Origin: a virus | Virus record (IMG/VR): IMGVR_UViG_3300009159_000053 | Span: 22,893-86,892 of that record | Strand: one strand, 5' to 3' | Length of the DNA stretch: 64,000 nt | Shown here: piece by piece, positions 2,899 to 48,700 of the stretch | How the letters are laid out: each line of letters begins with the position of its first letter | Position numbering within the stretch: the stretch's first letter is position 1 | Program-made: the position numbers and the translations under genes | The notes under the pieces: model-generated | The model's database searches: none | The model's input: only the letters and a program-made list of their open reading frames with translations | Told to the model about the DNA's origin: nothing

Positions 2899-3160
2899 CT
2901 ATGACCATTTGCACAGTCCCTAGATAACCCGCCCCATCAACTAGGTTGTCTCTCTTTTGTTGGTGCACTTCACGACAAATTTTTACCCATGCCATTGCTA
3001 ATCCAACCTGTTCTTCAGTTACTTTAGTATTAAAAATAACTTCCCAACCTTTAGCAATACGATTAAAATTGTCTAACGGATGATCGTAAGACTTGTTACG
3101 ATCACCCGTTATCAAACGCTGTGCTTCTTCAAGCACCGTCTCGTTATGGAACTCTGACAT
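2864..3160 (-). CDS. DUF6378-type phage protein (98 aa)
   Basis: The sequence carries the conserved features of a small phage family often labelled DUF6378: TGDRNKSYDHPLDNF near residues 18-32, an all-helical body and the motif KRDNLVDGAGYLGTVQM near the C-terminus. The layout resembles the MazG/all-alpha NTP-pyrophosphatase superfamily, and the Glu/Asp positions could bind Mg, but that is inference. The start overlaps the protease gene by 17 bases. The 3' end overlaps the RuvC-like gene. Confidence 0.7.
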   Translation of the reverse strand: MSEFHNETVLEEAQRLITGDRNKSYDHPLDNFNRIAKGWEVIFNTKVTEEQVGLAMAWVKICREVHQQKRDNLVDGAGYLGTVQMVIDERERRANQSD

Positions 3161-19308: not shown

Positions 19309-21519
19309 CTACACCGTAGTGGTGGTGTACTCCACTCCATCATAGGTGCGTAATCTCCAGAAGGCATTCTGGGGTACCCAGTCATTCATAGTCTTACCTA
19401 ATCTAGGAACTTTTTTAGGTTTATTTGGGTACAAATGGGTATAAGAAGCATCATCAGTTCCTTCCCAAACCGCTCCATACTCTGAAGGCAATGACCCATC
19501 AAAGTAATCTGTGGCTATCTGAGACTGTTCAAACTGAATCAAATCAAGAAAAATGGTTCCAGCGGTAGTTCCATAAAAAGAAACCTTGGCATAAGAAGCA
19601 TTTGATGCGGAATCTGTTAATCCAGTTAAAGTAAAATTTGCAAAAGATGTGGTTACAGATATAACTTCAGTTACCGTTTCTACAACAGAATCAGCATCAT
19701 TGTAAAAAGTAATTTTTAAATTTGCAGATAAAGCGGCCAACGCTTTTATGGATGCAGATAATGTGTAATATTTTCCAACAGTAATAGGTATCTCATAGTC
19801 AGTAGTAATACTCCATGGGTTTGTTACTACAAATCGACCACTGTAATCTCCTGAATATCCATATGTTGGAACACTAGAGTTTTGTGTAAAGGTTGCCCCA
19901 CTTAATGCCCACGTAGTTGAGTTGACCTCAAAAGATGGATTTTTAATATAGTTTGTTTTTAAAGGAAGTAAAAACACATCAATTGCACGTGCTTCATCGT
20001 AAGCAACAACGGCGCCCTCCTGCATACAGACCTGGTCTATATAATAAGTACCAGCAGCGCTGTAATCAATTGAAATTCCTGCATAACTAGAGTCTGCATC
20101 AGACGTTGCAGTTTTGCTTGCAGACTTCCACGTATTATTAGCAGCAACAGCAGTAGAACTTTTTGCTGCTGATGTAGGTTGTCCATCTTTATTGTAAAAT
20201 GTAACTGATAAAGTTATATTTCCCGCACTTGCTGGAGACTTTAATTTACAAGAAACAGTGTACTCAGTGTTTGGTAATACTGGAACACCTTGTGTAATTA
20301 CATTGCCACCTCCCACAACTGCAATAACTGAACCATTAAGAGCAGAAGCGTTATAAGAAGTAGTTGCAACTGTTGTTACATTAAACTGATTACTTGCTGG
20401 AACAGTAGTGATAGAATATGTTCCATTAAAATCTGAAGTTAATCCTGAAAGAATAACTGTTTGACCTACTGAATACCCGTGGTTTGCAACAGCAACTTGA
20501 AGAACGGTTGTACCTGCATTTCGTTGTAAACCAGTTACTGTTTTTGCGGTTGGGTTTGCATAACCCAAAGCCATACTGCCTGCGGCTGATGCAACTACTT
20601 TTCCAGTCTTTGTTGTGTCAATTTGGTTTGTATTTGAGTCAGGAACTTGTTCAGTGCTAGAGGTTAGCACTGCGTTACTAACAATCCAATTTCCAACTCC
20701 TCCATAAAAAGTCGAGTCTTGAACTGTTAATAATAAGTTTTCAGAAACAGTAATAGTTGGTTCAAATCCAGTCAATGATTCAGCATATGTTTCAATACCG
20801 TTTTGAGTTCCTTTATGAGTATACATATAAAGGGCTTCACGAATTAATCTTTTTTGATTTTTAACTGGCAAAGCAGATTCTGAAAGTAATCCGTAGTTTG
20901 TAACTTCTGCTGGTATTAATTCAAAAGGAGTTTCTAACCCCGTATGTCTTGGCTTTAATAGATCAATCAAAGTGTATAATTCTTCTTGAGCAAAAGTTAA
21001 TCCCGACATAAATTTATAAAGGTCAGAATCTACATCAACTGCTCCCAAGGGTTCTTGAGATTTGCTTGTAAAAACTCTTGGAATAGTTGCCATAAACCTA
21101 TCTTGTATACCGTGGTCTGACGGAACAATTGCTGTAATAGAACCAGCAACTTTCCAGACTAAAGTATTAGTAAACAAAAACATTCTGTAATAAACTTGTC
21201 TGCCAGGAACTAAAGGTATATCTGTTGGGTTATCTTCTCCATCAATAATTGATGTTCTACTAACAGTTCCTTCTGTTGCAAATTCATCATAAATAATTAC
21301 GCCGTCTTCAGAAGTTTCGGGAAATCCTGCTTGATTTCTTACAAGTCTTATGCGAGTAAATTCACCTCTAGGGGTTTGCCATTCAACAAGCACTTTCGAA
21401 AAAGAAGACACCGTAGATAGTTCTGTTGCCAATACTGACATTGGTTGAACAGAGAATCTAAGATTAACAAAAGACCCATAACTAGATGAGCCGTAATAAT
21501 TTACGCCATATTTTGCCAC
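19309..21519 (-). CDS. Baseplate/tail protein, gpI-like N-terminal half with carbohydrate-binding-like modules
   Basis: The N-terminal 270 residues follow the P2 gpI/phage tail protein pattern (LYKFMSGLTFAQEELYTLID and the helix GTQNGIETYAESLTGF). The rest contains two beta-sandwich modules of the kind that bind sugars (about 270-320 with 405-505, and 515-680) and a small inserted domain at about 320-396. That inserted domain is copied in the gene at 60971-61642. Translation starts at GTG with AAGGGG upstream. The product probably links the baseplate to the fibres. Confidence 0.75.
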   Translation of the reverse strand: MAKYGVNYYGSSSYGSFVNLRFSVQPMSVLATELSTVSSFSKVLVEWQTPRGEFTRIRLVRNQAGFPETSEDGVIIYDEFATEGTVSRTSIIDGEDNPTDIPLVPGRQVYYRMFLFTNTLVWKVAGSITAIVPSDHGIQDRFMATIPRVFTSKSQEPLGAVDVDSDLYKFMSGLTFAQEELYTLIDLLKPRHTGLETPFELIPAEVTNYGLLSESALPVKNQKRLIREALYMYTHKGTQNGIETYAESLTGFEPTITVSENLLLTVQDSTFYGGVGNWIVSNAVLTSSTEQVPDSNTNQIDTTKTGKVVASAAGSMALGYANPTAKTVTGLQRNAGTTVLQVAVANHGYSVGQTVILSGLTSDFNGTYSITTVPASNQFNVTTVATTSYNASALNGSVIAVVGGGNVITQGVPVLPNTEYTVSCKLKSPASAGNITLSVTFYNKDGQPTSAAKSSTAVAANNTWKSASKTATSDADSSYAGISIDYSAAGTYYIDQVCMQEGAVVAYDEARAIDVFLLPLKTNYIKNPSFEVNSTTWALSGATFTQNSSVPTYGYSGDYSGRFVVTNPWSITTDYEIPITVGKYYTLSASIKALAALSANLKITFYNDADSVVETVTEVISVTTSFANFTLTGLTDSASNASYAKVSFYGTTAGTIFLDLIQFEQSQIATDYFDGSLPSEYGAVWEGTDDASYTHLYPNKPKKVPRLGKTMNDWVPQNAFWRLRTYDGVEYTTTTV
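20321..20540. repeat. Copy 1 of a dispersed intragenic domain repeat
   Basis: About 220 bases inside the gpI-like gene resemble 61070-61290 closely, including a 30-base stretch that is identical in both places (it covers codons for TTVLQVAVA). The encoded domain is about 75 residues long (FNGTY and TTSYNAS are landmarks). The DNA-level identity implies recent duplication or recombination. Confidence 0.8.
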
Positions 21520-26052: not shown

Positions 26053-27429
26053 TTAATCCTTTATTTCTGGAGGGTCGTAGAATCTATGACAACTAATTTG
26101 TACGTTAGAAATAATAGGAACCATTCTGTCATTAAATACAGTGTGATTTATATTTATGGAACCTATTCTTACCAAGTACCTAAGTCCATCACCTAAATGA
26201 AGTTCTACTTGAGCACCCGTTAAGTAACCTCTATCTGCAGTTTTATCATTTAGACTAGATGTATAAGTTGCGTTTGGTCCATTTATTGTTCTAAACAAAT
26301 ATTCTAAATCATACATAGTACCTTTTTTATAAATCATTTTTAAATCTTCTAGTTTATTAAAGTTTCCTGGATAAGGATTCTCTGCACCAGTTATAAATCC
26401 ATTAGAATCTAGATAAGTCATGTCGCCAATTCTATTTAATAACAAAGTAAAATCTACAGTGCTTTGATTTAATCCAGCACCTACAGGAGTTATACCCCCA
26501 TCAGCACCGCTCTGTACAACTTCTGGGTTAAATCCTTCGGCAATTCCCCACCCCATACTTACCTCTGTTGGATTGTATAGAAATTTAAATCCATACATTT
26601 TAGGATCAATTGATGAGTCAGTTTTTTTATTATAAAACTGTGTATTATCTATACGACTACGAGACATTTGAATAGTTCCCTTAGCGGCAGGCGCTGACTC
26701 AAGTACTGTTCCAGTAATTGGGTCGTATTTAATTGGGGTATACATATTTTTTGCATCTGTGTAATTGCCTGCATCTGAAATTCCCCTAAAAGTATTTTCA
26801 CTTTGAGGACCCTTACTTCTAAAATATGCGGATCTAACCATTGGTGCGTTGTAGGTATAGAAAGGTGTTGGAGGTGTTGTAGTTGGTGGAGGGTCTTCTG
26901 TAGCACCTTTTATTGGTTTTTCTACAGATTTCTTTCCACTTGGCTTTTTTGTTTTTGGATTAATCACAGGTTTTCTTGCATCAAATTCTTTTTTTGCAGC
27001 AGCCTGAGAAGAAGATATTAATTGATTTTGAATAGATTTCTTTAAAGTTTCAGCCGTATTTATTCTAGTTGTAAGAACAGCGATTGCTGAATTCATTGCA
27101 TTTATATTACCTATAGCCGTATTTAAGTTTGCTTGTTCCCCCGCAGAGTATGGAGGCGGTGCATAAGCGGTGTAAAGGTTTCTTAAGGTAGTTTCTAATC
27201 CAGCCAACTCTACATACCTTGCTTTTTTTGCAGTTGTTAGTACGTCAAACTCAAAGACCGCTGCTTGTAATGCCTTCTGTTGTTTTGCTTTTTCAGCCTT
27301 AATGTTCTTTTCTTCATTAACTCGTTGCTGTTCGTTTTGTACGTTAGAAATAATTTGGGCTGTAGTTAAACTAACAGATCCTGGTCTAGCATATTTATTA
27401 GGGCCACTTGTTATTAATCTACCAGCCAT
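26053..27429 (-). CDS. Tail tube/baseplate initiator-like protein (458 aa)
   Basis: The N-terminal third is a long helical, Lys/Ala/Gln-rich coiled coil. A Pro/Thr linker follows (about 165-190). The C-terminal half is beta-rich and has FKFLYNPTEVSMGWG and an ending ISNVQISCHRFYDPPE. The NPTEV motif resembles tube-initiator proteins of contractile injection systems. Its place between tape measure and LysM supports this. The exact family was not determined. Confidence 0.6.
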   Translation of the reverse strand: MAGRLITSGPNKYARPGSVSLTTAQIISNVQNEQQRVNEEKNIKAEKAKQQKALQAAVFEFDVLTTAKKARYVELAGLETTLRNLYTAYAPPPYSAGEQANLNTAIGNINAMNSAIAVLTTRINTAETLKKSIQNQLISSSQAAAKKEFDARKPVINPKTKKPSGKKSVEKPIKGATEDPPPTTTPPTPFYTYNAPMVRSAYFRSKGPQSENTFRGISDAGNYTDAKNMYTPIKYDPITGTVLESAPAAKGTIQMSRSRIDNTQFYNKKTDSSIDPKMYGFKFLYNPTEVSMGWGIAEGFNPEVVQSGADGGITPVGAGLNQSTVDFTLLLNRIGDMTYLDSNGFITGAENPYPGNFNKLEDLKMIYKKGTMYDLEYLFRTINGPNATYTSSLNDKTADRGYLTGAQVELHLGDGLRYLVRIGSININHTVFNDRMVPIISNVQISCHRFYDPPEIKD

Positions 27430-29468
27430 TATTTACTCCCCATCGCTTGAAGATCTTTATCATTTAATAGTATTTCTTTTATTTTTTTGGCTAGAGAGTT
27501 AGCCTCTGCTATTGATGCATTGGCTAAATTTACATTTACATTTACGGTGTTTGTTCCAACACTTGCGGTAGATACTCCTGAAGTATGTTGCAAATACTTT
27601 CCACTAGTATAGGTAGTCCATGGATTAAAGTTTGTTCCACCTTTAGAAATATCATAAGCAATTTTTGCATTTATAGTTGGATCTTTAAGACTTTCAGGTC
27701 CTGTGTAACCTATGGATTTATATTTCTTTAGATAAGCCTCATTACGTTTTACGCCCATATTAGGATTACGAGGATCATTGTTCTCCATATTAATTTGAAA
27801 TAATCCGTAAGACTTATCAAGACCTGTTGGATTGTATGCGTTTGCTCTTCCACCAGATTCAGCCTTTACAATTCCGTAGGCTGTATTTAAGGATGCTCCG
27901 CTAAACCCAGCATTTTGTAGAGTTTGTACTAAACCAGGATCCATTCCAGCCGCCATCTGTGTTCCTGTTTGAGATGTTTGGACTGCGTTAGCAGGAGTTC
28001 CAAACATACTTGCTAATGCTTTAGTACCTAAATAACCAAGGCCAGATAAAATTCCCCCACCAATTGCTCCAGGAACTGCGCCAATTCCACCAAAGAATGC
28101 TCCACCAATTCCACCAGCCGCAGCACCTATGCCAACTGTGCTTAAAAATCCCTGACCAGTTGCTGCACCAACAGCGCCACCAAGCACTGGTACTGCTCTT
28201 CCTAACCCTGTCATACCAACCTTAGCAGCAGTTGCAGCGCCACCAGATGCAAGCACACTCGTCGCACCCTTTGCAGCCATTGCAGCCATTGCTTTCCTTG
28301 CGCCAGCGGCTATTGCAACTGTGGATACACCCGCAGCAATTCCTCCAGCAACTCCACTGACAACTGACCCGCCAGGTGTATTAGAGAATCCTTGAACAAA
28401 TCCTTTTGCTTTAAAGAACCCATCAGGCAATCTTTCTAACTGTGCATTTAATGCGGCCGCTGCAGTTGCTGCATTATTAAACCCAGCAATCATTGGCTCT
28501 GTACCCCGCTCCATCAATGACGTCATTGATGTAGCAATTTTCATTTGTGCATTTAATGGGTTATCAGGATTAAAGGGTGCATTTTCTAAATCAATATTTC
28601 TTTTACCTGCAGCCATGTCTGTGAGCAGGGTTCCAAACATTTCTTGTTGTGATTGAGAAAATCCTAGAGCCTTTAAAGATTGTCCTGCAAAACCCTCACG
28701 CAAAGCCACCGACATTTGTTCAGCAGTTACTTTTCTACCTTGCGTCATTCTGTCAAAGAGTTGTTTAGCAATGTCTCCAGTAGATCTGGCTTTTCCAGTT
28801 TTTGGATCAAAAGTACTAATACCATATTGATAAAGATTTCCACCCATTGCACCAGTGTGCAAACCACCTATAGCCTGAGCAGCAGTAGCATTTGGCATAC
28901 CTAAGTAACGTGCAGCGCCACCAACTTCTTGCATTGCTCTAGTAAAGTCTGCAGTTCCTGGCATGTAATTATATCCTTGGACAAGCATTGCAGCGGCTGC
29001 GGCATCTTCACCAGGACCTGTAATTCCTCCACCCAAAGCACCAAAGGTGGCCCGTGCTAATCCAGCACGATTCATGGCTCCAGCACTACGAAGTGATGCG
29101 GTGTAAAAACCAGATGCACGAGCAATAGTTGTTCCAAGATCTGGAATTGCATCGTACATTCCGCCAGCAACACCTAAACCAAACTGAACTCCACCAACTG
29201 CAGCAGCACCTTTTTTAGTGTATAGCCATGGCATCATTCCGCCTTGGCTATTACCTGTTCCATTACTAAACTGAGCGTTGTTACTTCCTAAACCTAAACT
29301 AGATCCTTGGCCAACACTTGGAGTTAAGATTGAAGTTACAGATTTTAAAGTGGTACCAGCAAGTCCACTTAATCTTTTTAATGCCGACTCTATAGAACTT
29401 AATTTTTTTACAGTATTATCTAGACCTGCATTAAGCCCAGATACTTGGGAGATAGGGTCTTTAGCCAC
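27429..29468 (-). CDS. Tape measure protein with C-terminal lysozyme-like (SLT) domain
   Basis: The protein has a coiled-coil N-terminus, a long Ala/Gly-rich hydrophobic middle (about 330-500), and a C-terminal transglycosylase domain. The active-site Glu is predicted at 537 in IVKAESGG, with YGLFQIN downstream. At 679 aa it implies a tail of roughly 100 nm if the usual length rule applies. It starts at GTG at 29468, 8 bases inside the frameshift ORF. The enzyme part likely opens the cell wall at injection. Confidence 0.88.
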   Translation of the reverse strand: MAKDPISQVSGLNAGLDNTVKKLSSIESALKRLSGLAGTTLKSVTSILTPSVGQGSSLGLGSNNAQFSNGTGNSQGGMMPWLYTKKGAAAVGGVQFGLGVAGGMYDAIPDLGTTIARASGFYTASLRSAGAMNRAGLARATFGALGGGITGPGEDAAAAAMLVQGYNYMPGTADFTRAMQEVGGAARYLGMPNATAAQAIGGLHTGAMGGNLYQYGISTFDPKTGKARSTGDIAKQLFDRMTQGRKVTAEQMSVALREGFAGQSLKALGFSQSQQEMFGTLLTDMAAGKRNIDLENAPFNPDNPLNAQMKIATSMTSLMERGTEPMIAGFNNAATAAAALNAQLERLPDGFFKAKGFVQGFSNTPGGSVVSGVAGGIAAGVSTVAIAAGARKAMAAMAAKGATSVLASGGAATAAKVGMTGLGRAVPVLGGAVGAATGQGFLSTVGIGAAAGGIGGAFFGGIGAVPGAIGGGILSGLGYLGTKALASMFGTPANAVQTSQTGTQMAAGMDPGLVQTLQNAGFSGASLNTAYGIVKAESGGRANAYNPTGLDKSYGLFQINMENNDPRNPNMGVKRNEAYLKKYKSIGYTGPESLKDPTINAKIAYDISKGGTNFNPWTTYTSGKYLQHTSGVSTASVGTNTVNVNVNLANASIAEANSLAKKIKEILLNDKDLQAMGSK

Positions 29469-29637
29469 TTGTCATCCTTTCGTATCTAACTCGGGCAACC
29501 TCTAACCAGTTACTTCTCTCTCGTCGAGACATGTCCTTTATCTCTGAGAGAGACCAACTGTCGTACAACTCACTTATGGCAGACCATTCAGAGAACAATC
29601 TGACATAACCAATTACATTAGAACTGAAATAAGGATC
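29461..29637 (-). CDS. Tail assembly chaperone, frameshift extension
   Basis: An open frame of 58 codons starts without an ATG or GTG just inside the end of the upstream chaperone gene and stops in the first codons of the tape measure gene. It encodes a hydrophilic, helical sequence (LFSEWSAISELYDSWSLSEI, then SRRERSNWLEVARVRYERM) that looks like real protein, not noise. It lies +1 relative to the chaperone, and the two frames overlap by about 20 bases. Chaperones before tape measure genes are usually made as such a fusion. Without a shift it would have no good start. Confidence 0.7.
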   Translation of the reverse strand, partial: DPYFSSNVIGYVRLFSEWSAISELYDSWSLSEIKDMSRRERSNWLEVARVRYERMTSG

Positions 29638-30421
29638 CTAAATTAATAGGAACCGTTACCTCACTTCCTGTGTCAGGATCAACAACTACCACATCCTCAA
29701 ACTGAGGACCTGGTGCTCTCTTGTTAATCTCGTCAATAATTTTTCTACGATCAATTACGCTAAGTGCAAGCACTTGGCTCTTGCTATATACAGGGTTCTC
29801 ACCAATACGGACAACGGTGTTCTCTAGAACAATTGTGCTTAGTTCTGCAGGTGTCTTCTCCATATTGTTAATCATTTCTCGCTGTACAACTCCATTAGGA
29901 AGTTTGACTGTGTAGTCAATAGACTTTCCTTTAACAGTAAATACCCGCTCATTTATTGGGTCAGTAAGAAGTTTTACTTTAATATCTGTATTGACATCAA
30001 CTTCTACAAGTTTATCTTCACCATCAACAAATATTGGGATCTTTATTTTGCTACCAAAGGTTGCTTTTAAAATTCCAAGAAGAATGGCATCTCTATCACC
30101 AACTAGTAGATCATCAAGGATCTTGTCTGTGGCTGGTTCATTACCAATCTTTACAGTTCCTAGTTGTAGAACTGTAAGAATTGCTTTACCTAAATTATTA
30201 GTCTTTGAAATTGTCTCTTCATCTTTACCGTTAAGTTCACGAACTTCTGCGGTTCTGATGACCTCCCCAGCGGCGTTTATATAGCCGCCAGGAAGTTCAA
30301 CAGTAGTATCTGAAGGAGATACAATTTCAGGCGTTCTTTCTTTTGGCGTTTCATTTATCGCCTTGTTTAACAGTTGATTTGCTAATGCGGGATTAACCGC
30401 TGCACTAATTGTGTTCGTCAT
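29618..30421 (-). CDS. Tail assembly chaperone / T4_baseplate-type protein
   Basis: The central part (LDDLLVGDRDAILLGILKAT) matches the T4 baseplate/tail chaperone family in which a GDRD-x-LL motif is conserved. The length is 267 aa. It lies between tail tube and tape measure, the classic place of the chaperone pair. The ATG follows AAAGGATAACA. The last codons read TTA TTT CAG TTC TAA, and the sequence TTT C could allow a +1 slip of tRNA-Phe. Confidence 0.78.
   Translation of the reverse strand: MTNTISAAVNPALANQLLNKAINETPKERTPEIVSPSDTTVELPGGYINAAGEVIRTAEVRELNGKDEETISKTNNLGKAILTVLQLGTVKIGNEPATDKILDDLLVGDRDAILLGILKATFGSKIKIPIFVDGEDKLVEVDVNTDIKVKLLTDPINERVFTVKGKSIDYTVKLPNGVVQREMINNMEKTPAELSTIVLENTVVRIGENPVYSKSQVLALSVIDRRKIIDEINKRAPGPQFEDVVVVDPDTGSEVTVPINLGSLFQF
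29623..29639 (-). promoter_or_regulatory. Candidate +1 ribosomal frameshift site (TTT C)
   Basis: In the 20-base overlap between the chaperone stop and the open +1 frame, the only good slip is at the codon TTT followed by C: tRNA-Phe can move from UUU to UUC. The fusion would read Gly-Ser-Leu-Phe, then Ser-Ser-Asn-Val. No downstream pseudoknot was examined. Confidence 0.45.
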
Positions 30422-30444: not shown

Positions 30445-31068
30445 TTAGAACGCTGCTGCGTCTGTAGATAAGTTTGCTGCCCAGTTAACATTAAAGCCCT
30501 CATGGACTAGAGTCATCTGTTCAACAAGTAGAGCATTATCACCTGCGTTTAGATCTGAGTATGCCACAGCAGTTGGCCAGCAGTTGTAAACTTCAAAACG
30601 CATTGCTACGTGGTCTGTTGCTGCTGGAGAGTTTTGAGCAGTCTCACCTGCTGATGGAACTGGATGAGATAAGACTTTAATCTCTAGATCGCAACGGAAG
30701 TTTTCATTCTTAGCACGGGTTGAACCCCCACCTTGAACTGTTGCGAATAGGTTACGCATCCATTCCCAGTTTTGATTTGTTCCAAGAATTACGCCACGTT
30801 GTAACGTAATAGGAGCAAACGTAGTCTGTCCAGGAATCTGGTGAACGGTAGTGTTGTATCCACCTTCACGGTAAGGAATGGAGTCGGTTGTAACCGCCAT
30901 TCCAGAGATTGATGTAAAACCAAAAGTAACTGCATTAGCAAGATTGTTAGTTGCAGTACTAGTTGGTGCACCACCAACACTTGTCAATGGTTTAAACGTA
31001 ACTAAAAATCTAAAGTTACGTAACGGATCGGTAATTAAATTTGACCGATTATTAATGATTGTAGGCAT
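30445..31068 (-). CDS. Tail tube protein (gp19-like)
   Basis: The 207-residue protein has the T4 gp19-like pattern: PLRNFRFLVTF at the start, FTSISGMAVTTDSIPYREGG, VHQIPGQTTFAPITLQRGV and the C-terminal YNCWPTAVAYSDLNA. AAGGAG lies upstream. It stacks inside the sheath, whose gene is directly upstream. Confidence 0.92.
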   Translation of the reverse strand: MPTIINNRSNLITDPLRNFRFLVTFKPLTSVGGAPTSTATNNLANAVTFGFTSISGMAVTTDSIPYREGGYNTTVHQIPGQTTFAPITLQRGVILGTNQNWEWMRNLFATVQGGGSTRAKNENFRCDLEIKVLSHPVPSAGETAQNSPAATDHVAMRFEVYNCWPTAVAYSDLNAGDNALLVEQMTLVHEGFNVNWAANLSTDAAAF

Positions 31069-31089: not shown

Positions 31090-32601
31090 TTAGTTCAGCG
31101 TCTTTTGGCTGAGATCGATGACGATGAACTCTGCTGGATATTGAAGAGCAACACCAACTTGAATGTGAACTTCACCATTTGCAATATCTGCATCTGAGTT
31201 GTTCTCTGCATCGCACTTTACAAAGTAAGCCTGTGCTGGAGTTGCTCCACGCAGACCACCCTGATTGCGATACTCATTTAAGAATGATCCAAGATTTGTG
31301 TTTATACGTGCCCACAGTCTTTCATCATTGTTTTCAAATAATGCAAACTCTGTTAAGTTCTTTAGGTTCTTGCGGATGTAAATTAAAGAACGACGCATGT
31401 TCACATACTTGTTTGCAGTTCCATCTTGCTTTAATGTACGAGCACCCATTACAGAAAGTCCAGCACCAGGGATTTGGCGAATTGGATTTACTGGGGATGT
31501 GCTTGCATTCATTGTGTCTAACTCTGCAGAGGTAAATGACTTTTCTACAGAAACGATTCCTAGTACTGGAGTTGAGATACCAGCAGGAGCCTTGAATACG
31601 CCACGGCTTGCATCTGTTGATAGGTAAAGACCAACAACTGCGCCAGTAGGTTCAATCTTACGAAGTGCTCCAGAACTACGTCCTAGTGGATCAGAAATGA
31701 ACACGTTAGGATAGTAGACAGCAGCATTGCTTGTATCTGCAAGAGAACCAGCAAAAGAAACAGCATTTGCAACTGTTAAATCTGGATCGGTTCCAATTAC
31801 AACAAAGCCGTTACTGTCTTCTGCCCAAGATGTTGCAGCATCAAAGACTGAAACTGTTCCAGATGCTAATGCATTTGCAACAGGTAGGAATAGTACTAGT
31901 GGACGGTCTAGTGAGGTAAAGCGCTCAAATACTGACGAACCACCAGCCTTGTAGTTGGTGTAGTCAGTAGCAGCGGTTGCTGTGCCATTTGAACCACTTG
32001 TTAGTGGGTAGGTTGCTAGAGTAATAGATGCACCAGCATAACCACCAGCAACAGATACTGAGATGTTTGGTGAAATAATGTTAATTACTGTTGGAGCATA
32101 ATCACTTGAAGCAGCGTCATTAAATACAATATTTGAATATTGTTCAAGAAGAATGTCATCAGAAATGTCGTTTGCTACACCTGACTCTTTGTAAAGAGTA
32201 AGTGTATAAGTGCTTGCAACGTCACCAGCAGTCAATACAACACGAAGGTTGTTACCATCTGTTCCAGCGTTCTTTGAAGTAACAGTCGCAGCAGTTGCAC
32301 CGCCACCATCTGTTAAGTTTCTAGAAGCAGCAACAGCGTTAGCCGCAAGCAGACGTTGAACATAAAGTTCACGTCCACCATTACTAAAGAATGAGCCAAC
32401 TTGGAAGGTGGCTGGATAGGTTGCGTTGTAACCTCCGAAGTACTTGGTAAATTCATACCAAGAGTTAACAAGGGTTACTGTTTCTGGGCCTTGTGCAAAA
32501 GGTGCAACAATTGCGCCAGCAGCATTTGCAGTAACTCCACTTGGGAGTACTGGTGGTAGTAGGCGTTCACTTATGTAAACACCTGGACGGCTATAAGCCA
32601 T
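31090..32601 (-). CDS. Contractile tail sheath protein
   Basis: The N-terminus (SRPGVYISERLL) and the C-terminal block (GARTLKQDG, RRSLIYIRKNLKNLTEFALF) are those of Phage_sheath proteins. An inserted variable domain occupies about residues 90-230. The length of 503 aa is typical. It proves that the phage is a myovirus. AGGAG precedes the ATG. Confidence 0.96.
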   Translation of the reverse strand: MAYSRPGVYISERLLPPVLPSGVTANAAGAIVAPFAQGPETVTLVNSWYEFTKYFGGYNATYPATFQVGSFFSNGGRELYVQRLLAANAVAASRNLTDGGGATAATVTSKNAGTDGNNLRVVLTAGDVASTYTLTLYKESGVANDISDDILLEQYSNIVFNDAASSDYAPTVINIISPNISVSVAGGYAGASITLATYPLTSGSNGTATAATDYTNYKAGGSSVFERFTSLDRPLVLFLPVANALASGTVSVFDAATSWAEDSNGFVVIGTDPDLTVANAVSFAGSLADTSNAAVYYPNVFISDPLGRSSGALRKIEPTGAVVGLYLSTDASRGVFKAPAGISTPVLGIVSVEKSFTSAELDTMNASTSPVNPIRQIPGAGLSVMGARTLKQDGTANKYVNMRRSLIYIRKNLKNLTEFALFENNDERLWARINTNLGSFLNEYRNQGGLRGATPAQAYFVKCDAENNSDADIANGEVHIQVGVALQYPAEFIVIDLSQKTLN

Positions 32602-32632: not shown

Positions 32633-33532
32633 TTATGGTGCCGATTGAGTGTACGTATCGATGGTAGTGAACTGAGAGCGACCAAGGGTCTGACTTCCAG
32701 TTGTACCTGTGACGTTTAGTTGCAACACTTTGTACATCTTATTGAATGTTTCAGCCGCAATCTCAGATGAGACACGGACTGTTATTGCATTTACAAATAG
32801 TCTTTTTCCTTGTTCTGTAATATCTCTCTTAGAAATATCAAGAACATCCAAACGACGAGTTGTTCCAAACACAGTATTTGGTCCTGTATCTAAAACAGCA
32901 AATCGTAATGGAATCTTTGAGTAAAGAAGTTGTGCCAAAATTTGACGGTCATGTCTTGGTTGGCGAGAAAAAGAAGTTATTTGATAATCAATGTTTACTG
33001 GAATTGGATAGTTTATATCCCAGTTATGCTCATCAGTATCCCAAGCAGTATTTGTACCAATGACTGATGGGTTAGTTAAATAGGCTGGCTTTACTCTACC
33101 TCTCATGGCACGAGAAAAGTCTTCAGAGATATCAATCATATCAATAGTTATATAAGGATAAGACTGCGCTCTGATTTCCTGATCGGGTTGTCCAAACCAT
33201 ACTCCTACTTTTCTAGTAGTTCCTGGAGTAGCAGTGCCACCTGAAGCAACTCTTGCAATGTTTGCATTTGTTTTTGCATATTTAAATGTAGTAGAAGTTG
33301 GAATTAACGTAATGTTGTAGGTGCCATTAAAGGGCGTTGAAGCACCAGCAATTGTAACTGTGTCTCCAACTTCAAAGCCGTGCTCTGTAGATGTAGTTAT
33401 TGTAACTACATTGGTAGTAAGCGCTTTGTGTGTAATAGTTTTTGCCGTTGCAGATGCAGCCTGTTGATCAGTAACGGTCATCTCCTTTAAGAGATTTCTT
33501 AGTGCTTCATCTTCATCTAATAAGAATGTCAT
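32633..33532 (-). CDS. Tail terminator/completion-like protein with inserted beta domain
   Basis: Residues 24-102 hold a small beta domain (HGFEVGDTVTIAGAS, FNGTYNIT) related to the one at 20.4 and 61.2 kb. The rest (VWFGQPDQEIRAQSYPYITI, then NIDYQITSFSRQPRHDRQI) resembles proteins that close the tail above the sheath. The position next to the sheath supports a completion role, but no named family is certain. Confidence 0.6.
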   Translation of the reverse strand: MTFLLDEDEALRNLLKEMTVTDQQAASATAKTITHKALTTNVVTITTSTEHGFEVGDTVTIAGASTPFNGTYNITLIPTSTTFKYAKTNANIARVASGGTATPGTTRKVGVWFGQPDQEIRAQSYPYITIDMIDISEDFSRAMRGRVKPAYLTNPSVIGTNTAWDTDEHNWDINYPIPVNIDYQITSFSRQPRHDRQILAQLLYSKIPLRFAVLDTGPNTVFGTTRRLDVLDISKRDITEQGKRLFVNAITVRVSSEIAAETFNKMYKVLQLNVTGTTGSQTLGRSQFTTIDTYTQSAP

Positions 33533-33849
33533 AGGTGACCATCCAGATGTCTCATAGCACGATTAACTAAAAACTTTTCAGCCTCAGTCTGTCTGTTATT
33601 AAATCTACGTATAGCAGCAGTTGGCTGTGTATCTGGGGTTCCGTATTCAAGATCTAGGATCTGAACTTTATGGGCTGGGTTTCCATGAACTGTAAAGGAT
33701 CCATTATCATGGCGAACATGCAGGTGCTTAACAATCTTTTCTGGCCAACCAGAAGCACGGGCCTCTGAACGCAAGTGAGCGCCCATGAAGCGTGTAGTTT
33801 CTACACTGGCTTTAGTTAGGGATTCTTTGGCTCTCTTTAGGTAGGTCAC
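33529..33849 (-). CDS. Probable neck/tail-completion protein (106 aa)
   Basis: The short basic protein has a helix-beta pattern (SFTVHGNPAHKVQILDLEYG) like HK97 gp10-type minor tail or neck proteins. It starts at GTG (GTGA overlap) and ends in ATGA with the tail completion gene. The function is inferred from location and general shape. Confidence 0.55.
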   Translation of the reverse strand: MTYLKRAKESLTKASVETTRFMGAHLRSEARASGWPEKIVKHLHVRHDNGSFTVHGNPAHKVQILDLEYGTPDTQPTAAIRRFNNRQTEAEKFLVNRAMRHLDGHL

Positions 33850-34052
33850 TTCTTCTTCTTCGCTTTCGCCTTCGCTTTTGCGCCAACGTACACAGCACCA
33901 GCAAGATAGGCTGCGGTTGTACCTGCAAGAATCGATGCGATAGCGGGACGTTTTTCTTTAGGGCGGAATCCAAACACACCCCGAATAAACTCTTCACGTT
34001 CGCCTTGATTATTCATCTCAGCGACCTGTTCGTACCAAGGCTTATAAGCCAT
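33846..34052 (-). CDS. Small protein with hydrophobic segment and Lys/Ala tail (68 aa)
   Basis: I start at the ATG at 34052 (MAYKPWYEQV), which has AAAGGGG upstream; a longer frame running through the terminator is rejected. A hydrophobic segment (AIASILAGTTAAYLAGAVYV) is followed by the basic tail AKAKAKKKK. It may be a membrane or DNA-associated virion protein. It is the first gene after the terminator at 34131-34154. Confidence 0.6.
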   Translation of the reverse strand: MAYKPWYEQVAEMNNQGEREEFIRGVFGFRPKEKRPAIASILAGTTAAYLAGAVYVGAKAKAKAKKKK

Positions 34053-34095
34053 AATAAATAACCCCTTTATCGCAACCTGTGGGACAGTAGTCAGG

Positions 34096-34108
34096 CACCG
34101 CAGCGGTG
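34096..34108. promoter_or_regulatory. Perfect 13-base palindrome, possible operator or hairpin
   Basis: The sequence CACCG-CAG-CGGTG lies in the 78-base region between a terminator and the first gene of the tail operon. It could be a regulator site or a short RNA hairpin. No -35/-10 pair was convincing around it. Confidence 0.3.
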
Positions 34109-34130
34109 TTCTGATATAGCAATGATAAAT

Positions 34131-34154
34131 GAAAAAGCCACCCGTAGGTGGCTT
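34131..34154 (-). terminator. Intrinsic terminator with UACG tetraloop
   Basis: An 8-bp stem (34135-34142 with 34147-34154) encloses the loop TACG, closed by C and G (a UNCG-type loop), and is followed on the minus strand by TTTTT. It lies six bases after the last of the tiny basic genes and before the tail operon. Confidence 0.85.
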
Positions 34155-34159
34155 AGTCA

Positions 34160-34405
34160 TTACTTCTTTTTCTTTTCTCGCTTGTCTTCAGCCTTCTCGC
34201 CTTTTTTACCTTCTTTGGCTTCGTGCTTCTTAGATGCGGATTTAATCTTCTTTATATTAGCAACATCCATCTTGCGGTCATCCTCTTGGGACTTAGGCTT
34301 GCGATGCTTCTTATCCATCTTTTCAAACTTGGCCTTCTCTTCTTTATCCAATCCCTTTGTGGTCTTGGCATCCTGCTTCTTGTCAGAGGCCTTGGTGTAC
34401 TTCAT
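34160..34405 (-). CDS. Lysine-rich protein (81 aa)
   Basis: About 29 of 81 residues are Lys, with many Asp and Glu and almost no hydrophobic residues, so it should be unfolded or bind DNA or RNA. The C-terminus is KREKKKK. The ATG overlaps the previous stop as TAATG. It is the last gene of the small-gene chain; the terminator follows its stop by six bases. Histone-like condensation of phage DNA is a guess. Confidence 0.65.
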   Translation of the reverse strand: MKYTKASDKKQDAKTTKGLDKEEKAKFEKMDKKHRKPKSQEDDRKMDVANIKKIKSASKKHEAKEGKKGEKAEDKREKKKK

Positions 34406-34524
34406 TAGACGATCTTCTTTTTCTTCTTCTTCTTTAGCGCTTTAAAATCTGCGCCAGTAATTTTATCAGCAGGCTTTGCAGCGTTAGCAATCTTCATCTG
34501 CTTAGGGCTTAGTGACTTCTTCAT
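34405..34524 (-). CDS. Lys-rich small protein (39 aa)
   Basis: This 39-codon frame (MKKSLSPKQMKIANAAKPAD...) ends in a run of seven lysines followed by IV. It is coupled on both sides by TAATG overlaps. It is part of a chain of tiny genes with the same chemistry. The function is unknown. Confidence 0.6.
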   Translation of the reverse strand: MKKSLSPKQMKIANAAKPADKITGADFKALKKKKKKKIV

Positions 34525-34589
34525 TACTTACCCTTCTGGCAAGTGGAACACTTGCACTTGCAGTTCTTCATTGTGCACTTAAGAGCCAT
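34524..34589 (-). CDS. Tiny cysteine-rich protein (21 aa)
   Basis: A 21-codon frame codes for a peptide with five cysteines (positions 5, 10, 12, 14, 17) among lysines. AAGGAC lies upstream, and both ends are TAATG junctions, which argues for real translation. It looks like a metal-binding peptide of the metallothionein or zinc-knuckle kind; the metal is unknown. Confidence 0.5.
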   Translation of the reverse strand: MALKCTMKNCKCKCSTCQKGK

Positions 34590-34708
34590 TATTTTTTGTC
34601 CTTCTTTTTCTTGTCTGTCTTCTTCTTAGCATACTTCTTATTAGCAGCGGCTAGAGTCTTCATGCCGTGCTTATCTTTTGGCTTCATACAGCCACAGGTG
34701 CTACACAT
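34589..34708 (-). CDS. Small protein with CxxCxC motif and lysine tail (39 aa)
   Basis: The N-terminus reads MCSTCGCMKP, a tight cysteine motif, followed by a lysine-rich helix (KKYAKKKTDKKKKDKK). Its cysteine group recalls that of the 21-residue neighbour, and the tail recalls the other chain members. The start follows the upstream stop by two bases. Confidence 0.55.
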   Translation of the reverse strand: MCSTCGCMKPKDKHGMKTLAAANKKYAKKKTDKKKKDKK

Positions 34709-34710
34709 AT

Positions 34711-34887
34711 TTATTTACCTTTCGTCTTAGTCTTCTTAGCCTTTTTAGCAACTGCTGCATTATCGACTAAGTTTGGGTAGGGGCGTCCTGCTGCCTTGGC
34801 TCTCGCCTTAGCCGCAGACTTCTGAGATGGTGTTAACTTCTTATCTTTACCTGAAGGATCTTTTGTATTCCAAAATGCTTTTGCCAT
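34711..34887 (-). CDS. Basic small protein (58 aa)
   Basis: I start at the ATG at 34887 (MAKAFWNTKD), a TAATG junction. The sequence has LTPSQKSAAKARAKAAGRPY in the middle, a pattern common in small phage proteins, and ends with KKAKKTKTKGK. It is basic with few hydrophobic residues. No specific function is known to me. Confidence 0.65.
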   Translation of the reverse strand: MAKAFWNTKDPSGKDKKLTPSQKSAAKARAKAAGRPYPNLVDNAAVAKKAKKTKTKGK

Positions 34888-35147
34888 TAACAATCCCACT
34901 TTCTTAATGCTAGTGCCTTACGAGTTGGCTTGCCATTCTTTTCCATTGGTCCCTTGACCCCACCCATTCTTGCACAAAATGATTTACGACGTGCTGCTTT
35001 TTTAGGAGACTTCTTTGCCTCTTTTGCCGATACTGGAGGTTTTAATGTTCCGCCAGTTTCACGCTTATAGGATGCACGACCCTTTGCATTTAATCCACCC
35101 TCTGGATTCTTACCTTCCTTGCGTTGCCATGCTGCTGTCTTTGCCAT
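34887..35147 (-). CDS. DUF6321-like basic protein (86 aa)
   Basis: The N-terminus (AAWQRKEGKNPEGGLNAKGR) and the C-terminal block RRKSFCARMGGVKGP then KALALRKWDC match a family of small phage proteins labelled DUF6321, which are found near structural genes of many aquatic phages. It has two conserved cysteines, 29 residues apart. The function is unknown. Confidence 0.75.
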   Translation of the reverse strand: MAKTAAWQRKEGKNPEGGLNAKGRASYKRETGGTLKPPVSAKEAKKSPKKAARRKSFCARMGGVKGPMEKNGKPTRKALALRKWDC

Positions 35148-35398
35148 TATCGTCCCTGACTTCTATGAGGATTGCTTTTGTGCCAACTCTTTACAGCCTT
35201 GACACCTTGCTTAACAGTCTTTGATCCGCCCATTTTTGTGAGATTGATTTTATCCCACTTACCTTGATTGGTATTGGTGTGCTCAACAACCACATCACCC
35301 TTTTTATTTTTAGAAACTTTATGAACTACCTTGGCTTTTTTCTTAGGAACACCAATAGCAAGAGTTACTGGCTTTTCTGGCTTCTTCTTATCAGCCAT
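35147..35398 (-). CDS. Basic small protein (83 aa)
   Basis: The product is Lys-rich (VPKKKAKVVHKVSKNKKGDV) with a somewhat more ordered C-terminus (GGSKTVKQGVKAVKSWHKSN). It is coupled on both sides by overlapping starts and stops. No family was recognised. Confidence 0.6.
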   Translation of the reverse strand: MADKKKPEKPVTLAIGVPKKKAKVVHKVSKNKKGDVVVEHTNTNQGKWDKINLTKMGGSKTVKQGVKAVKSWHKSNPHRSQGR

Positions 35399-35580
35399 TA
35401 AGCCACCGACTTCTTATGCTTATAACGAATTGGGGCTTTAGGTTTTCTCACTATGCCGCCCTTCTTTCGTTTTAATTTAGCACCGCCAGCCTCGTATTTA
35501 CTCTCAGTAACATTTGTTTGAATATTCTTCTGTGGCTGCTTACCAGCCCTTGCTCCAATGTTCCTGCGCCGTCTTGCCAT
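35398..35580 (-). CDS. Arg/Lys-rich small protein (60 aa)
   Basis: The sequence begins MARRRRNIGARAGKQPQKNI and ends RKPKAPIRYKHKKSVA. It is strongly basic throughout and probably disordered. It lies inside the small-gene chain with TAATG junctions on both sides. Nucleic-acid binding is likely on composition only. Confidence 0.6.
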   Translation of the reverse strand: MARRRRNIGARAGKQPQKNIQTNVTESKYEAGGAKLKRKKGGIVRKPKAPIRYKHKKSVA

Positions 35581-35756
35581 TACTTACTCTTCTTCTTCTT
35601 TGACATTCCCGCTTCGCTCATTGCAATAGCAACAGCCTGCTTCTTTGATTTAACAACTGGGCCTTTACCAGGACCCCTCTTACCTGAGTGCAACTTTCCT
35701 TCTTTGTACTCCTTCATAACCTTTTCAACTTTGCCTTTTGCTTTTTTAGTTGCCAT
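35580..35756 (-). CDS. DUF6496-like basic protein (58 aa)
   Basis: The sequence KVEKVMKEYKEGKLHSG, then VVKSKKQAVAIAMSEAGMSK is the signature of the small DUF6496 family found in many bacteria and phages. I choose the third of three consecutive ATGs (35756), which has GAGG at the right distance. It opens the chain of tiny basic genes. Confidence 0.72.
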   Translation of the reverse strand: MATKKAKGKVEKVMKEYKEGKLHSGKRGPGKGPVVKSKKQAVAIAMSEAGMSKKKKSK

Positions 35757-35841
35757 CATCATCCTCTTCTACTTGGTCATCTAATTCTACCGCATCAAAC
35801 TCAAAGAGAGATGGGTCTAATAACTCTTCAAAATTTCCCAA
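35746..35841 (-). CDS. Possible small acidic ORF with TTG start (31 aa)
   Basis: Between the neck-type gene and the DUF6496 gene lies a 31-codon frame starting with TTG two bases after a stop. It is very acidic (ends EEDDDGN), in contrast to the basic genes after it. There is no good ribosome site, so it might instead be expressed by a frameshift or not at all. Confidence 0.3.
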   Translation of the reverse strand: MGNFEELLDPSLFEFDAVELDDQVEEDDDGN

Positions 35842-45805: not shown

Positions 45806-46338
45806 TGTTTCCTAATTGGTTTAAAGATGTAGAGAAGTACTTCAGACATGTACCAAGTGTTCCACTTCGTGCACTGCAGATCGGCACCTACACAGGAGAC
45901 GCCACGCAGTGGCTACTTACTAATCGAGAGATTGAATATCTAGATGATGTAGATACATGGGAAGGCAGTGAAGAGACCGCCCATGAAGATTTAGATTTTG
46001 TTTCAGTAGAGGCTTACTATGATTCAAGATTCCCAAAGGATGGAAGAATCTTAAAGCACAAGATGACCAGTGATGACTTCTTTATTCGTAACGCTAGTTC
46101 ATATAACTTCATATACATAGATGGCGACCACACCGCTCTGCAGACCGCTATGGATGGCTTAAATGGCTTCAGGCACCTGGAATCAGGTGGGGTGATGGCA
46201 TTTGATGATTACCTCTGGAACTACGGCGGAGGAGAGTACAGAGAGCCAAAGAGGGGCGTGGATTGCGTTCTTAATCTCTGTAAAGGCGAGTACACAATGA
46301 TTGAATCTGGATATCAAGTATGGATTGAGAAGTGCTAG
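45805..46338 (+). CDS. Class I SAM-dependent methyltransferase
   Basis: Motif I is LQIGTYTGDAT (24-34). YIDGDHT (104-110) and GGVMAFDDYLW (128-138) are the hallmarks of the Methyltransf_24 group, often in surface-sugar or antibiotic clusters. It is coupled to the TPR gene (TAATG). It may methylate a sugar or other acceptor made or transferred by the cassette. Confidence 0.82.
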   Translation: MFPNWFKDVEKYFRHVPSVPLRALQIGTYTGDATQWLLTNREIEYLDDVDTWEGSEETAHEDLDFVSVEAYYDSRFPKDGRILKHKMTSDDFFIRNASSYNFIYIDGDHTALQTAMDGLNGFRHLESGGVMAFDDYLWNYGGGEYREPKRGVDCVLNLCKGEYTMIESGYQVWIEKC

Positions 46339-47063
46339 ATAACGCCTGCTTTGAGGTCTTTCATACTGATACTGGAAATGAACTAAGAAACAAATCTTAT
46401 GAGGGCATTTTAAACTCTATGTCCTTCTTGCCACGCCTTGGCTCTGAGACTATGTATCTAAATACAGCAGAGAAGGCTGAAGCATTTATTAATCAAACCC
46501 CAGAGTTTAAAGTAAATACGGTTACTGATTTCTGTAAGCCAGGAGAGACCTTCCCTCCAAGTTCTGGTGTTGTGGGAGTTTGGGCAAGTACTTACTTGGC
46601 ATATAAAAAGTTTTTAGAGTCTGATAAAAAGGTATTAATATTGTTTGAAGATGACATAGTCATAAGTAAAAACTTTAAAGGTATTGCAGAGTTATACATG
46701 AGCGAACTAATGCCTATCTGGGATTTCTTTTCTTTTTTTGTACCTGATGATTCACTCTTTGCATATAATGAATCTGAGCATGATTTAAGTGAAGAGCACA
46801 TTTGCAAGTCTTATCAGCAGTGGTCTTGTGCAGGATATGCTGTAAGTAGACGTGGGGCAGAAAAAGCAATTGCAGATATTAAATTACAAGGAATTAACTG
46901 CCCTATAGATTGGTATATATTTAACTTTAGAATGAAGCAAGAAAAAAATCAAATGCGATTTAATACCTTTACAGTAAAACCACAAATATATAAACCTATA
47001 AAGTTTTTATCAGAAGCGGCTCAACACAGCCAAATTCACAACGGCAGTACAGAACTACTTTAG
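46332..47063 (+). CDS. Glycosyltransferase family 25-like protein
   Basis: The features of GT25 (LPS-type galactosyl or glucosyltransferases) are present: GVVGVWASTYLAYKKFLES (79-97), then LILFEDDIVIS with the acidic triplet (106-108), and SCAGYAVSRRGAEKAI later. The start is GTG overlapping the methyltransferase stop. Its stop is immediately followed by the stop of the convergent collagen-like gene, with no base between. The sugar acceptor is unknown. Confidence 0.78.
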   Translation: MLDNACFEVFHTDTGNELRNKSYEGILNSMSFLPRLGSETMYLNTAEKAEAFINQTPEFKVNTVTDFCKPGETFPPSSGVVGVWASTYLAYKKFLESDKKVLILFEDDIVISKNFKGIAELYMSELMPIWDFFSFFVPDDSLFAYNESEHDLSEEHICKSYQQWSCAGYAVSRRGAEKAIADIKLQGINCPIDWYIFNFRMKQEKNQMRFNTFTVKPQIYKPIKFLSEAAQHSQIHNGSTELL

Positions 47064-48416
47064 TTACATTCCACCGTACAACAACACTGTAGTTGTTGGA
47101 TCAGCAGCAACTTGTCCAATAGTTCCTTGTGTACCTTGAGTACCGTTAGTTCCGCCAATACCTTGGGTACCTAGAGTACCTTGAGTACCTTGAGTACCTT
47201 GTGTTCCTTGTGAACCTACCGTACCTTGGGATCCATTAGATCCTACAAAACCAGCAGTACCTTGAGTACCTTGGGCTCCATTAGATCCTACAAAACCAGC
47301 AGTACCTTGAGTACCAACACTTCCCTGAGCACCAACAGTGCCTTGAGCACCTGTGTCACCCTTGTCACCAGTACGAGCAAAGGTAATTAAAATATCATCA
47401 GAGTTAGATAATGTTCCATTTCCAGAAACATAAGCAATATTAACAGTAAACCAACCTGTGTTATCTGTAAGAGAAGAAATTGTATAAAGTTTAAATACAC
47501 TGGTATCTAATTTCTTTGATACACGGAAGTGTCCTTTAATTGTTGAAGTAGAATCATCAATTGTTTGTAAGAAGGAAGAGATGTCTGTAGAATCATCATT
47601 ACTTGCATCAATGTACATAGCAGTTGCTGTTGTAGGAGATGCGTTAAATCTTAAGTTTCCAGTTCCTGGATCAGCATTAGTAGTACTTGTTAAAAAAGTG
47701 TAATCAAAGGTGGCTCCACCAAAACTACCAACAGTACCTTGGGTACCTAGAGTTCCTTGAGTACCTGTAGTTCCTTGAGAACCTACAGTTCCTTGTGCAC
47801 CAACAGTACCTTGGGATCCAGTAGAACCATTTAAACCTTGAGTTCCTTGTACTCCTTGGGTTCCCTGAGTTCCTTGAGTTCCCTGAGTTCCTTGTGTACC
47901 TTGTGTACCAACACTTCCTTGTGTTCCTGTAGTTCCTTGAGCACCTAAAGTTCCCTGTGTACCTTGAGTTCCCTGTGTACCTTGAGTTCCTGTTGGTCCT
48001 TGTAATCCCTGTGTACCTTGAACGCCTTGAGCACCTGTAGTTCCCTGTGCACCAGTAGTACCTTGAACTTGAGTTACAGTTGTATTAATTACCTGTGTTC
48101 CAGCATCGTAGGTAAATGTAATACCTGTTTTACTGCCGCTATTTAAGGCATTTGCAATACGTGTATTTGTAGCATATTTATTTACAGTACCTTCAGAAAG
48201 ATCGTCTGTAGTGCTTAATGCTGAACCTGCGATAAGTGCAGCAATTGCATCCTCATCAATAAAGTATGGCAAAGTAGCATAAGCAGTACTGCCATCACCA
48301 ATTTTAAATGTCTTATTTGTAGTGTCGTAGCAAACTTCACCAGCATATGGCGTTGGATTATTTGCAGTCCATTGACCAGCGGTTCCTCGTCGTACTTGAA
48401 TGCGTACTGATGCCAT
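47064..48416 (-). CDS. Collagen-like fibre protein with Mtd-type N-terminus (450 aa)
   Basis: Residues 1-60 have the fibre-base pattern RIQVRRGTAGQW, YAGEVCYDTTNKTFKIGDGS. Two collagen-like tracts (about 117-230 and 354-435) repeat GTQ/GAQ triplets. A 120-residue beta module stands between them ([15 protein letters not shown] as its mark). The protein is likely a long trimeric fibre. It is convergent with the GT25-like gene. Confidence 0.85.
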   Translation of the reverse strand: MASVRIQVRRGTAGQWTANNPTPYAGEVCYDTTNKTFKIGDGSTAYATLPYFIDEDAIAALIAGSALSTTDDLSEGTVNKYATNTRIANALNSGSKTGITFTYDAGTQVINTTVTQVQGTTGAQGTTGAQGVQGTQGLQGPTGTQGTQGTQGTQGTLGAQGTTGTQGSVGTQGTQGTQGTQGTQGTQGVQGTQGLNGSTGSQGTVGAQGTVGSQGTTGTQGTLGTQGTVGSFGGATFDYTFLTSTTNADPGTGNLRFNASPTTATAMYIDASNDDSTDISSFLQTIDDSTSTIKGHFRVSKKLDTSVFKLYTISSLTDNTGWFTVNIAYVSGNGTLSNSDDILITFARTGDKGDTGAQGTVGAQGSVGTQGTAGFVGSNGAQGTQGTAGFVGSNGSQGTVGSQGTQGTQGTQGTLGTQGIGGTNGTQGTQGTIGQVAADPTTTVLLYGGM

Positions 48417-48697
48417 TAAATTACTCCTCCACCATCATACGAAAGGGCATAAACATCTGACCCACCTGCTTCATTTCCGCCATCAATTGTTGCTGAATAA
48501 GAATCACTTCCTCCAGCCTCATCTCCGCCTTCAAGTATATCTGCTGCTGCGTTAGTAACAATCTCAAACCACTGTGCACCATCAAATACAAATAGATTCT
48601 TTGCATCTGTGTTGTAGTAGATGTCACCAGCGTACCTGCCTGTAGGCTCTGTGCCTATGGCAAGTACGTTGATAGGTACTAAGGCTCTTTTACTCAC
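48416..48697 (-). CDS. Small fibre-base protein (93 aa)
   Basis: The first 50 residues (SKRALVPINVLAIGTEPTGR, then YAGDIYYNTDAKNLFVFDGA) are the same N-terminal attachment domain as in the 918-aa fibre protein, without a shaft. The rest is Gly/Ser/Asp-rich with EAGGSD repeats. It starts at GTG. It may cap or anchor the collagen-like fibres. Confidence 0.65.
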   Translation of the reverse strand: MSKRALVPINVLAIGTEPTGRYAGDIYYNTDAKNLFVFDGAQWFEIVTNAAADILEGGDEAGGSDSYSATIDGGNEAGGSDVYALSYDGGGVI

Positions 48698-48700
48698 GTA

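Follow-up and report, generated by a model that had tools for sequence, protein, structure and literature searches.

A conserved +1 frame beyond a phage tail chaperone gene, with a putative UUU_C slip site and an upstream hairpin

The chaperone locus and its +1 frame

The window analysed in this study is a stretch of 64,000 nucleotides (nt) of the 86,892-base IMG/VR virus record IMGVR_UViG_3300009159_000053. The virus is a phage with a contractile tail. On the minus strand of the window lies a gene for a tail assembly chaperone, and overlapping the 3' end of this gene is a second open frame, in the +1 register, whose product (E') would be joined to the chaperone by ribosomal frameshifting at a TTT C site preceded by a small RNA hairpin (Table 1). 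The chaperone gene sits between the genes for tail tube and tape measure, as it does in the phages BRock, LuckySocke, GiJojo, pSt2308, and SP-15, and the order sheath, tube, chaperone, E', and tape measure is found in named phages. All the evidence for frameshifting presented here is comparative, i.e., drawn from sequence comparison.

Table 1. Features of the chaperone locus in window coordinates (aa, amino acids; AF2, AlphaFold2)
Feature	Position	Strand	Basis
Tail sheath	31090..32601	-	
Tail tube, gp19 family; 5' of chaperone gene	30445..31068	-	family match
0-frame tail assembly chaperone ('E', gpG-like; T4 gp26/PF12322 family), 267 aa	29618..30421	-	PF12322, AF2 model, fold match
Chaperone start codon ATG	30421	-	
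Hairpin 5' arm CCTA	29647..29650	-	covariation, RNA fold
Hairpin loop TTAATT	29641..29646	-	RNA fold
Hairpin 3' arm TAGG, ending 7 nt before TTT	29637..29640	-	covariation, RNA fold
Putative slip site TTT C (TTT 29629-29627, C 29626); P-site UUU to UUC, tRNA-Phe	29626..29629	-	in frame in 170/171 distinct relatives
0-frame A-site codon CAG	29624..29626	-	CGN or CAR in 159/170 relatives
0-frame stop codon TAA, 9 nt after start of TTT	29618..29620	-	
+1 frame after the predicted slip, 54 codons (E', gpT/gp51-like domain); stop 29463-29461	29464..29625	-	fusion translation, selection, weak PF06528 match
Tape-measure-like protein with SLT (lysozyme) domain, 679 aa; next gene	27429..29468	-	domain match, tape-measure position

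The frame at +1 to the chaperone gene runs for 58 codons without a stop (29637..29464, minus strand), beginning 17 nt 5' of the chaperone stop codon and overlapping the gene by 20 nt with the stop included, and the tape-measure GTG at 29468 overlaps its other end by a few bases. An earlier note on this DNA had described such a frame bridging the chaperone stop and the tape measure start, and our analysis confirms that the observation is real and that the frame is conserved; of the interval given there, 29461-29639, the frame stands, but the upper bound takes in 2 nt of an upstream TAG. It is also correct, as stated in that note, that no ATG or GTG lies near the 5' end of the 58 codons, where a TTG ('VRLF') is the earliest candidate start and no ATG comes before one in mid-domain ('DMSRR'). 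The chaperone gene ends with ..GGA TCC TTA TTT CAG TTC TAA, and when TTTC is read as one Phe step a single 319-aa protein results, in which ..VPINLGSLF continues into SSNVIGYVRLFSEWSAISELYDSWSLSEIKDMSRRERSNWLEVARVRYERMTSG, the junction of the fusion translation being ..PINLGSLF/SSNVIGYVRLF... Because the -1 frame is open merely from -22 to +5 nt around the chaperone stop (27 nt), a -1 slip cannot reach the 58-codon frame, in agreement with the first reading.

Loci for comparison were taken from four scans of viral contigs, one scan of genome contigs, and a collection of named phages, which gave 320 usable loci, 171 of them distinct; 105 sequences less than 88% identical served as representatives. 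The +1 open reading frame retains its frame, sequence, and position in relatives down to ~30% identity, and the search among relatives for loss of the frame, or for gain of a start codon before it, left the proposed +1 slip unrefuted. In 181 pairs of moderate divergence, which are not mutually independent, differences in the +1 frame number 2155 at third, 889 at first, and 671 at second codon positions, and among codons with a single change 1714 are synonymous and 729 are not (70% synonymous, vs 21% expected without selection). By this comparison purifying selection acts on the +1 frame, and the direction of the test is clear. Since frame, sequence, and position are kept to such low identity and the synonymous excess is strong, the +1 frame is not a chance one, and the protein that it encodes can be taken as genuine, as had been supposed.

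The records of the Streptomyces phages BRock, LuckySocke, and GiJojo and of pSt2308 give E' as a separate truncated gene or leave it unannotated, and none of the inspected annotations of named relatives records the fusion. Three Streptomyces phage records give the segment its own gene, starting from internal TTG or ATG codons, and these, with the TTG in the +1 frame of the window and the ATG of a separately annotated 51-like gene in the T4-like phage KVP40, would suit a model in which E' is never fused but is a small protein of its own, made from a non-ATG start or by ribosomes that re-initiate once past the stop of the chaperone gene. We consider this very improbable: of the 105 representatives, 63 lack ATG and GTG over the opening 25 codons of the +1 frame, and 41 lack TTG as well, the annotated starts remove conserved residues, and neither the invariant TTT_C nor the hairpin described below would be explained.

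The TTT C site and the upstream hairpin

An in-frame TTT C is present in 170 of the 171 distinct relatives, and the start of its TTT precedes the chaperone stop by 9 nt in 127 of these, 12 nt in 39, 18 nt in two, and 21 nt in two. In the sole exception (L298) the sequence is TTT TTC, the E' domain again lies at +1, and TTT T is also a +1 site. The codon that follows TTT is CGN in 106 relatives, CAR in 53, CTY in 10, and CCT in one (n = 170), the window itself having CAG, whereas the codon that precedes it is free to vary (TTG, TTA, CTN, TTT, TTC, ATG, and ACC). The GC content of the relatives' genes ranges from 35 to 72%, and all 23 GC-rich representatives use TTT for the shift-site Phe, while the other Phe codons of the same genes are TTT in 11 cases and TTC in 119. 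The multiplied probability of such TTT use over all representatives, 10^-42, treats relatives as independent and is indicative only. The presence of TTT C even where the gene prefers TTC supports, as the best reading, the slip of tRNA-Phe from UUU to UUC that the earlier note had proposed.

The same note had offered a -2 slip as the other option. Such a slip would land in the same frame as +1, and phage Mu uses -2 (PMC3498833), but re-pairing would involve the freely variable codon before TTT, and beyond TTT itself constraint falls on a single base, the C next to it, which a +1 slip requires; we give this option very little weight, less than a separate E'. Still less credible is a frame difference due to transcriptional slippage or to an error of sequencing or assembly, as nothing was found in its favour, the run of T in most members is just three long, and independent contigs and isolate genomes show the arrangement again and again. 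A slip coupled to the stop codon, like that of prfB, was also considered and rejected, since the codon before the stop varies (TTC, CTC, ATC, CAG, GAC, and others) while TTT_C is constant.

As to where the site occurs, chaperone relatives with TTT C and the +1 domain were also seen in actinobacterial and Bacillota genome contigs (L164-L168), and a search of a plasmid collection gave no match. In the tail-region genes of the window that were examined (19309-40364), TTT followed by C is under-used, at 12 of 186 TTT codons, compared with 12.8% of codons that start with C.

Directly upstream of the site, the sequence GTT CCx ATT AAT yTz GGn can fold as CCxA / TzGG around a 6-nt loop; the RNA fold of the window has -8.8 kcal/mol and a z of -3.14. 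In 58 distinct sequences the bases at x (Pro wobble, position -19) and z (Leu wobble, position -10) are combined as UA 25 times, GC 13, CG 9, AU 4, GU once, UG once, and otherwise 5 times. As these sequences were selected for conserved CC/TC and GG arms, the percentage of pairing in the outer pairs is not evidence for a stem, and it is the covariation between -19 and -10 that is. Its score is 0.348, vs 0.120 (standard deviation 0.016) after shuffling, with 0 of 500 shuffles reaching it, and sliding the partner never gives more than 0.070; of all 1241 pairs of columns within 60 nt, -19/-10 has the largest Watson-Crick excess. Parsimony on the protein tree counts 10 double changes between Watson-Crick states at -19/-10, the highest of 210 third-position pairs and 48% of the events of this pair.

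Synonymous shuffling also supports the stem: at least 4 base pairs (bp) are formed in 72 of the 105 representatives, vs 25 expected and a maximum of 33 in 100 shuffles. By the same procedure no stem excess was found in segments 60, 90, and 120 nt further upstream, and a slight one was found 30 nt further upstream (18 vs 10.9, maximum 16). The Streptomyces-type clade has a stem whose register is displaced (CCCAC/GTGGG) but whose 3' end is unchanged, and the excess is present there too. Structure downstream of the site gives a weak signal (mean z -0.69).

The conserved element might instead be an internal Shine-Dalgarno (SD) sequence, which would leave the frameshift itself unaffected. GG is indeed conserved at -9 and -8, and the +1 frameshift of prfB is stimulated by internal SDs (PMC6321510). 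However, this GG is part of a conserved Gly codon, and the base preceding it can be any of the four and changes together with -19, a pattern not expected of an SD, so that we find an SD unlikely, if less so than the other alternatives weighed above, and prefer the hairpin.

Protein families and a possible link to T4 gp26 and gp51

The Pfam family PF12322 (T4_baseplate, gp26/gp51) was matched in all 53 family members scanned at E <= 0.1, with a best E of 2e-14; the window chaperone alone matches it at E 0.00037 and 20.7 bits, below the curated cut-off of 24.5. Its AF2 model has a pLDDT (predicted local distance difference test) of 86.5. The top fold match in the PDB is the HK97 tail assembly chaperone 2ob9, with a probability of 0.94 but an E of 0.18 and a TM (template modelling) score of 0.22 of the query, so an HK97-chaperone-like fold of the first domain is suggestive only. 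Fold matches in BFVD are stronger and are to models of T4-like gp26 'baseplate hub' proteins, down to E 7e-18. The second domain, E', matches P2 GpE (PF06528) weakly (E 0.013). A scan of NCBIfam found no meaningful family and a PDB sequence search no relative; DUF6760 (PF20546) and Phage_TAC_7 (PF10109) gave weak matches in a few members, and DUF6760 was not found in the open-access literature searched.

In T4, gp26 and gp51 both match PF12322 (E 8.8e-64 and 3.9e-52), gp51 over residues 1-201 followed by a tail of 48 residues. E' aligns with this tail in hhalign with a probability of 69% (E 4.4e-5, 38 columns), while the whole-protein comparison with T4 gp51 is weak. In KVP40, a small gene is annotated as similar to the C-terminal part of T4 gp51, over 40 aa. 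As a side finding from 12 sampled T4-like relatives, T_TTT_TTC ends gene 26 and a 51-like frame is open at -1 through the heptamer in 10 (Bellamy, RB11-B, P-SSM3, P-SSM7, S-H34, KVP40, K571, Aeromonas 65, Yut3, and ACP17); of the other two, Ochrobactrum OC has T_TTT_TTT and D492 has none. T4 has two genes and these relatives a 51-like frame at -1 after U_UUU_UUC, whereas the frame in the window is at +1; the C-terminal extension of gp51 may resemble E'. Beyond the T4-like phages, an E'-like frame at +1 with TTT C is also found in Bacillus phage SP-15, Streptococcus phage vB_SagM-GXN1, and a 484-kb uncultured phage, and Listeria phage LIS04 has TTT TTT A; on inspection, a 595-kb uncultured phage (L334) showed no such arrangement.

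We infer from these sequence matches that the T4 paralogues gp26 and gp51 are the short and the long chaperone held as two genes. According to a review, G-T frameshifting has T4 as its exception, and shifts of -1, -2, and +1 all occur in different tailed phages (PMC5009743); the two-gene state could explain the absence of a G-T frameshift in T4. The earlier note had held that chaperone frameshifts are mostly -1; it recognized a known kind of event but missed +1 as a known option for tail chaperones (PMC5009743), and the hairpin, the CGN/CAR preference, and the link to T4 gp26/gp51 also escaped it.

Two probable chaperones from one gene

The comparisons argue that the gene yields two chaperones, of 267 and 319 aa, through a +1 slip at UUU_C that the hairpin probably aids, an account to which we assign a probability of about 0.9. 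The majority of ribosomes would stop at the TAA and release the shorter protein. In a fraction of cases, when UUU (codon 265) occupies the P site and CGN or CAR the A site, the ribosome would move one base forward, the peptidyl-tRNA-Phe re-pairing from UUU to the overlapping UUC, and translation of 54 more codons would give the fusion. The hairpin, formed by just-translated mRNA at about the point where mRNA exits from the ribosome, probably increases the rate of slipping. By analogy with gpG/gpGT of lambda and E/E+E' of P2, coating of the tape measure would fall to the short form, and the long one would bring in subunits of the tail tube.

Several points weigh against this account. The tests of codon usage and of synonymous shuffling count related sequences as separate, and the best PDB fold match is the one with the E of 0.18 given above. 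A slow A-site codon is not obvious because CAA is common in this phage (24 per 1000). Support for the hairpin at the RNA level comes mainly from one fully variable wobble-wobble pair, the outer C-G pairs deriving from conserved Pro and Gly codons, and among the relatives furthest removed the stem excess is borderline. When restricted to supported branches of the tree, independent-pairs tests give median p values of 0.0625 (strong/weak), 0.0625 (amino/keto), and 1 (purine/pyrimidine), a trend in the expected direction that falls short of 0.05.

The window resembles lambda, P2, and Mu in having a gene between tube and tape measure with a short and a putative frameshift-extended form, and also in the T/E'-like second domain, with its weak match to P2 GpE, and perhaps in an HK97-chaperone-like fold. 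Those systems, however, mostly use -1 (-2 in Mu), in contrast to the proposed +1 at UUU_C, the upstream hairpin, and the T4 gp26-family first domain seen here. In SPP1 and Listeria phages +1 frameshifting has been proven in tail genes (PMC3498833), but there the gene concerned is that of the major tail protein Tsh and not of a tail chaperone.

With regard to the site itself, influenza PA-X is made by a +1 shift at UCC_UUU_CGU attributed to UUU to UUC re-pairing, and Firth et al. saw that a number of viruses of eukaryotes favour CGN in the A site and anticipated that UUU_C sites would form a class (PMC3498833); UUU_CGN is common to amalgaviruses (PMC5052127). The phage site would share with these the P-site slip on UUU_C and, in part, the A-site CGN preference, and differs in being in a phage, read by 70S ribosomes, in the frequent CAR, in the variable E-site codon, and in the upstream hairpin.

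With prfB, which encodes release factor 2 (RF2), the window would have in common a one-base forward slip on 70S ribosomes and an upstream duplex near the exit site, but the phage has a hairpin in place of the SD duplex, and a feedback loop is not expected. The internal SD of prfB is closer to the P site than the hairpin is. For this reason, and because the phage stem is smaller than the designed 12-bp stem of Huang et al., the effect of the hairpin on the slip is put forward only as probable. In that work, done with a 70S system, +1 frameshifting was stimulated by an upstream hairpin beside the E site, which acted in the manner of the prfB internal SD (PMC6321510).

Frameshifted tail chaperones and +1 sites of the UUU_C type are already known, and it is the signal and the T4 link that look new: in the open-access papers searched, UUU_C sites are not described from phages, no +1 site has a natural hairpin upstream of it, and frameshifting between gp26 and gp51 is not mentioned. 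In such papers, stimulation of +1 by an upstream hairpin on 70S ribosomes comes so far from designed constructs only (PMC6321510), and a conserved natural site would give it a biological setting and a test bed. The class of UUU_C sites foreseen from eukaryotic viruses (PMC3498833) would now extend to phages, and the gp26/gp51 link offers an answer to the T4 exception (PMC5009743) and hints at what two 'baseplate hub' proteins of long standing may do. We lean, with distinctly less assurance than for the two products of the window gene, towards a wider picture in which a natural +1 frameshift on bacterial ribosomes is served by an upstream hairpin that refolds co-translationally and by UUU_C followed by G or A, and in which gp26 and gp51 act as the G and the G-T chaperone in tails of the T4 type, arising by +1 here, by -1 at U_UUU_UUC in KVP40 and cyanophages, and by duplication in T4.

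Elsewhere in the window, a series of short lysine-rich open frames (33846-35762, minus strand) has tail genes on one side and fibre genes on the other, and a gene like glycosyltransferase family 25 lies on the opposite strand amid tail-fibre genes (46332-47063, plus strand). Two proteins contain long collagen-like repeats, QGTxGTQ (47064-51457, minus strand), and a module resembling 'TVLQVAVANHGYSVGQTVILSGLTSDFNGTYSITTV' is common to three otherwise unlike proteins (19309-21519, 32633-33532, and 60971-61642, minus strand). A phage-encoded subtilase-like protease with an apparent signal sequence is found at 3144-4037 on the minus strand (Peptidase_S8, 1e-14).
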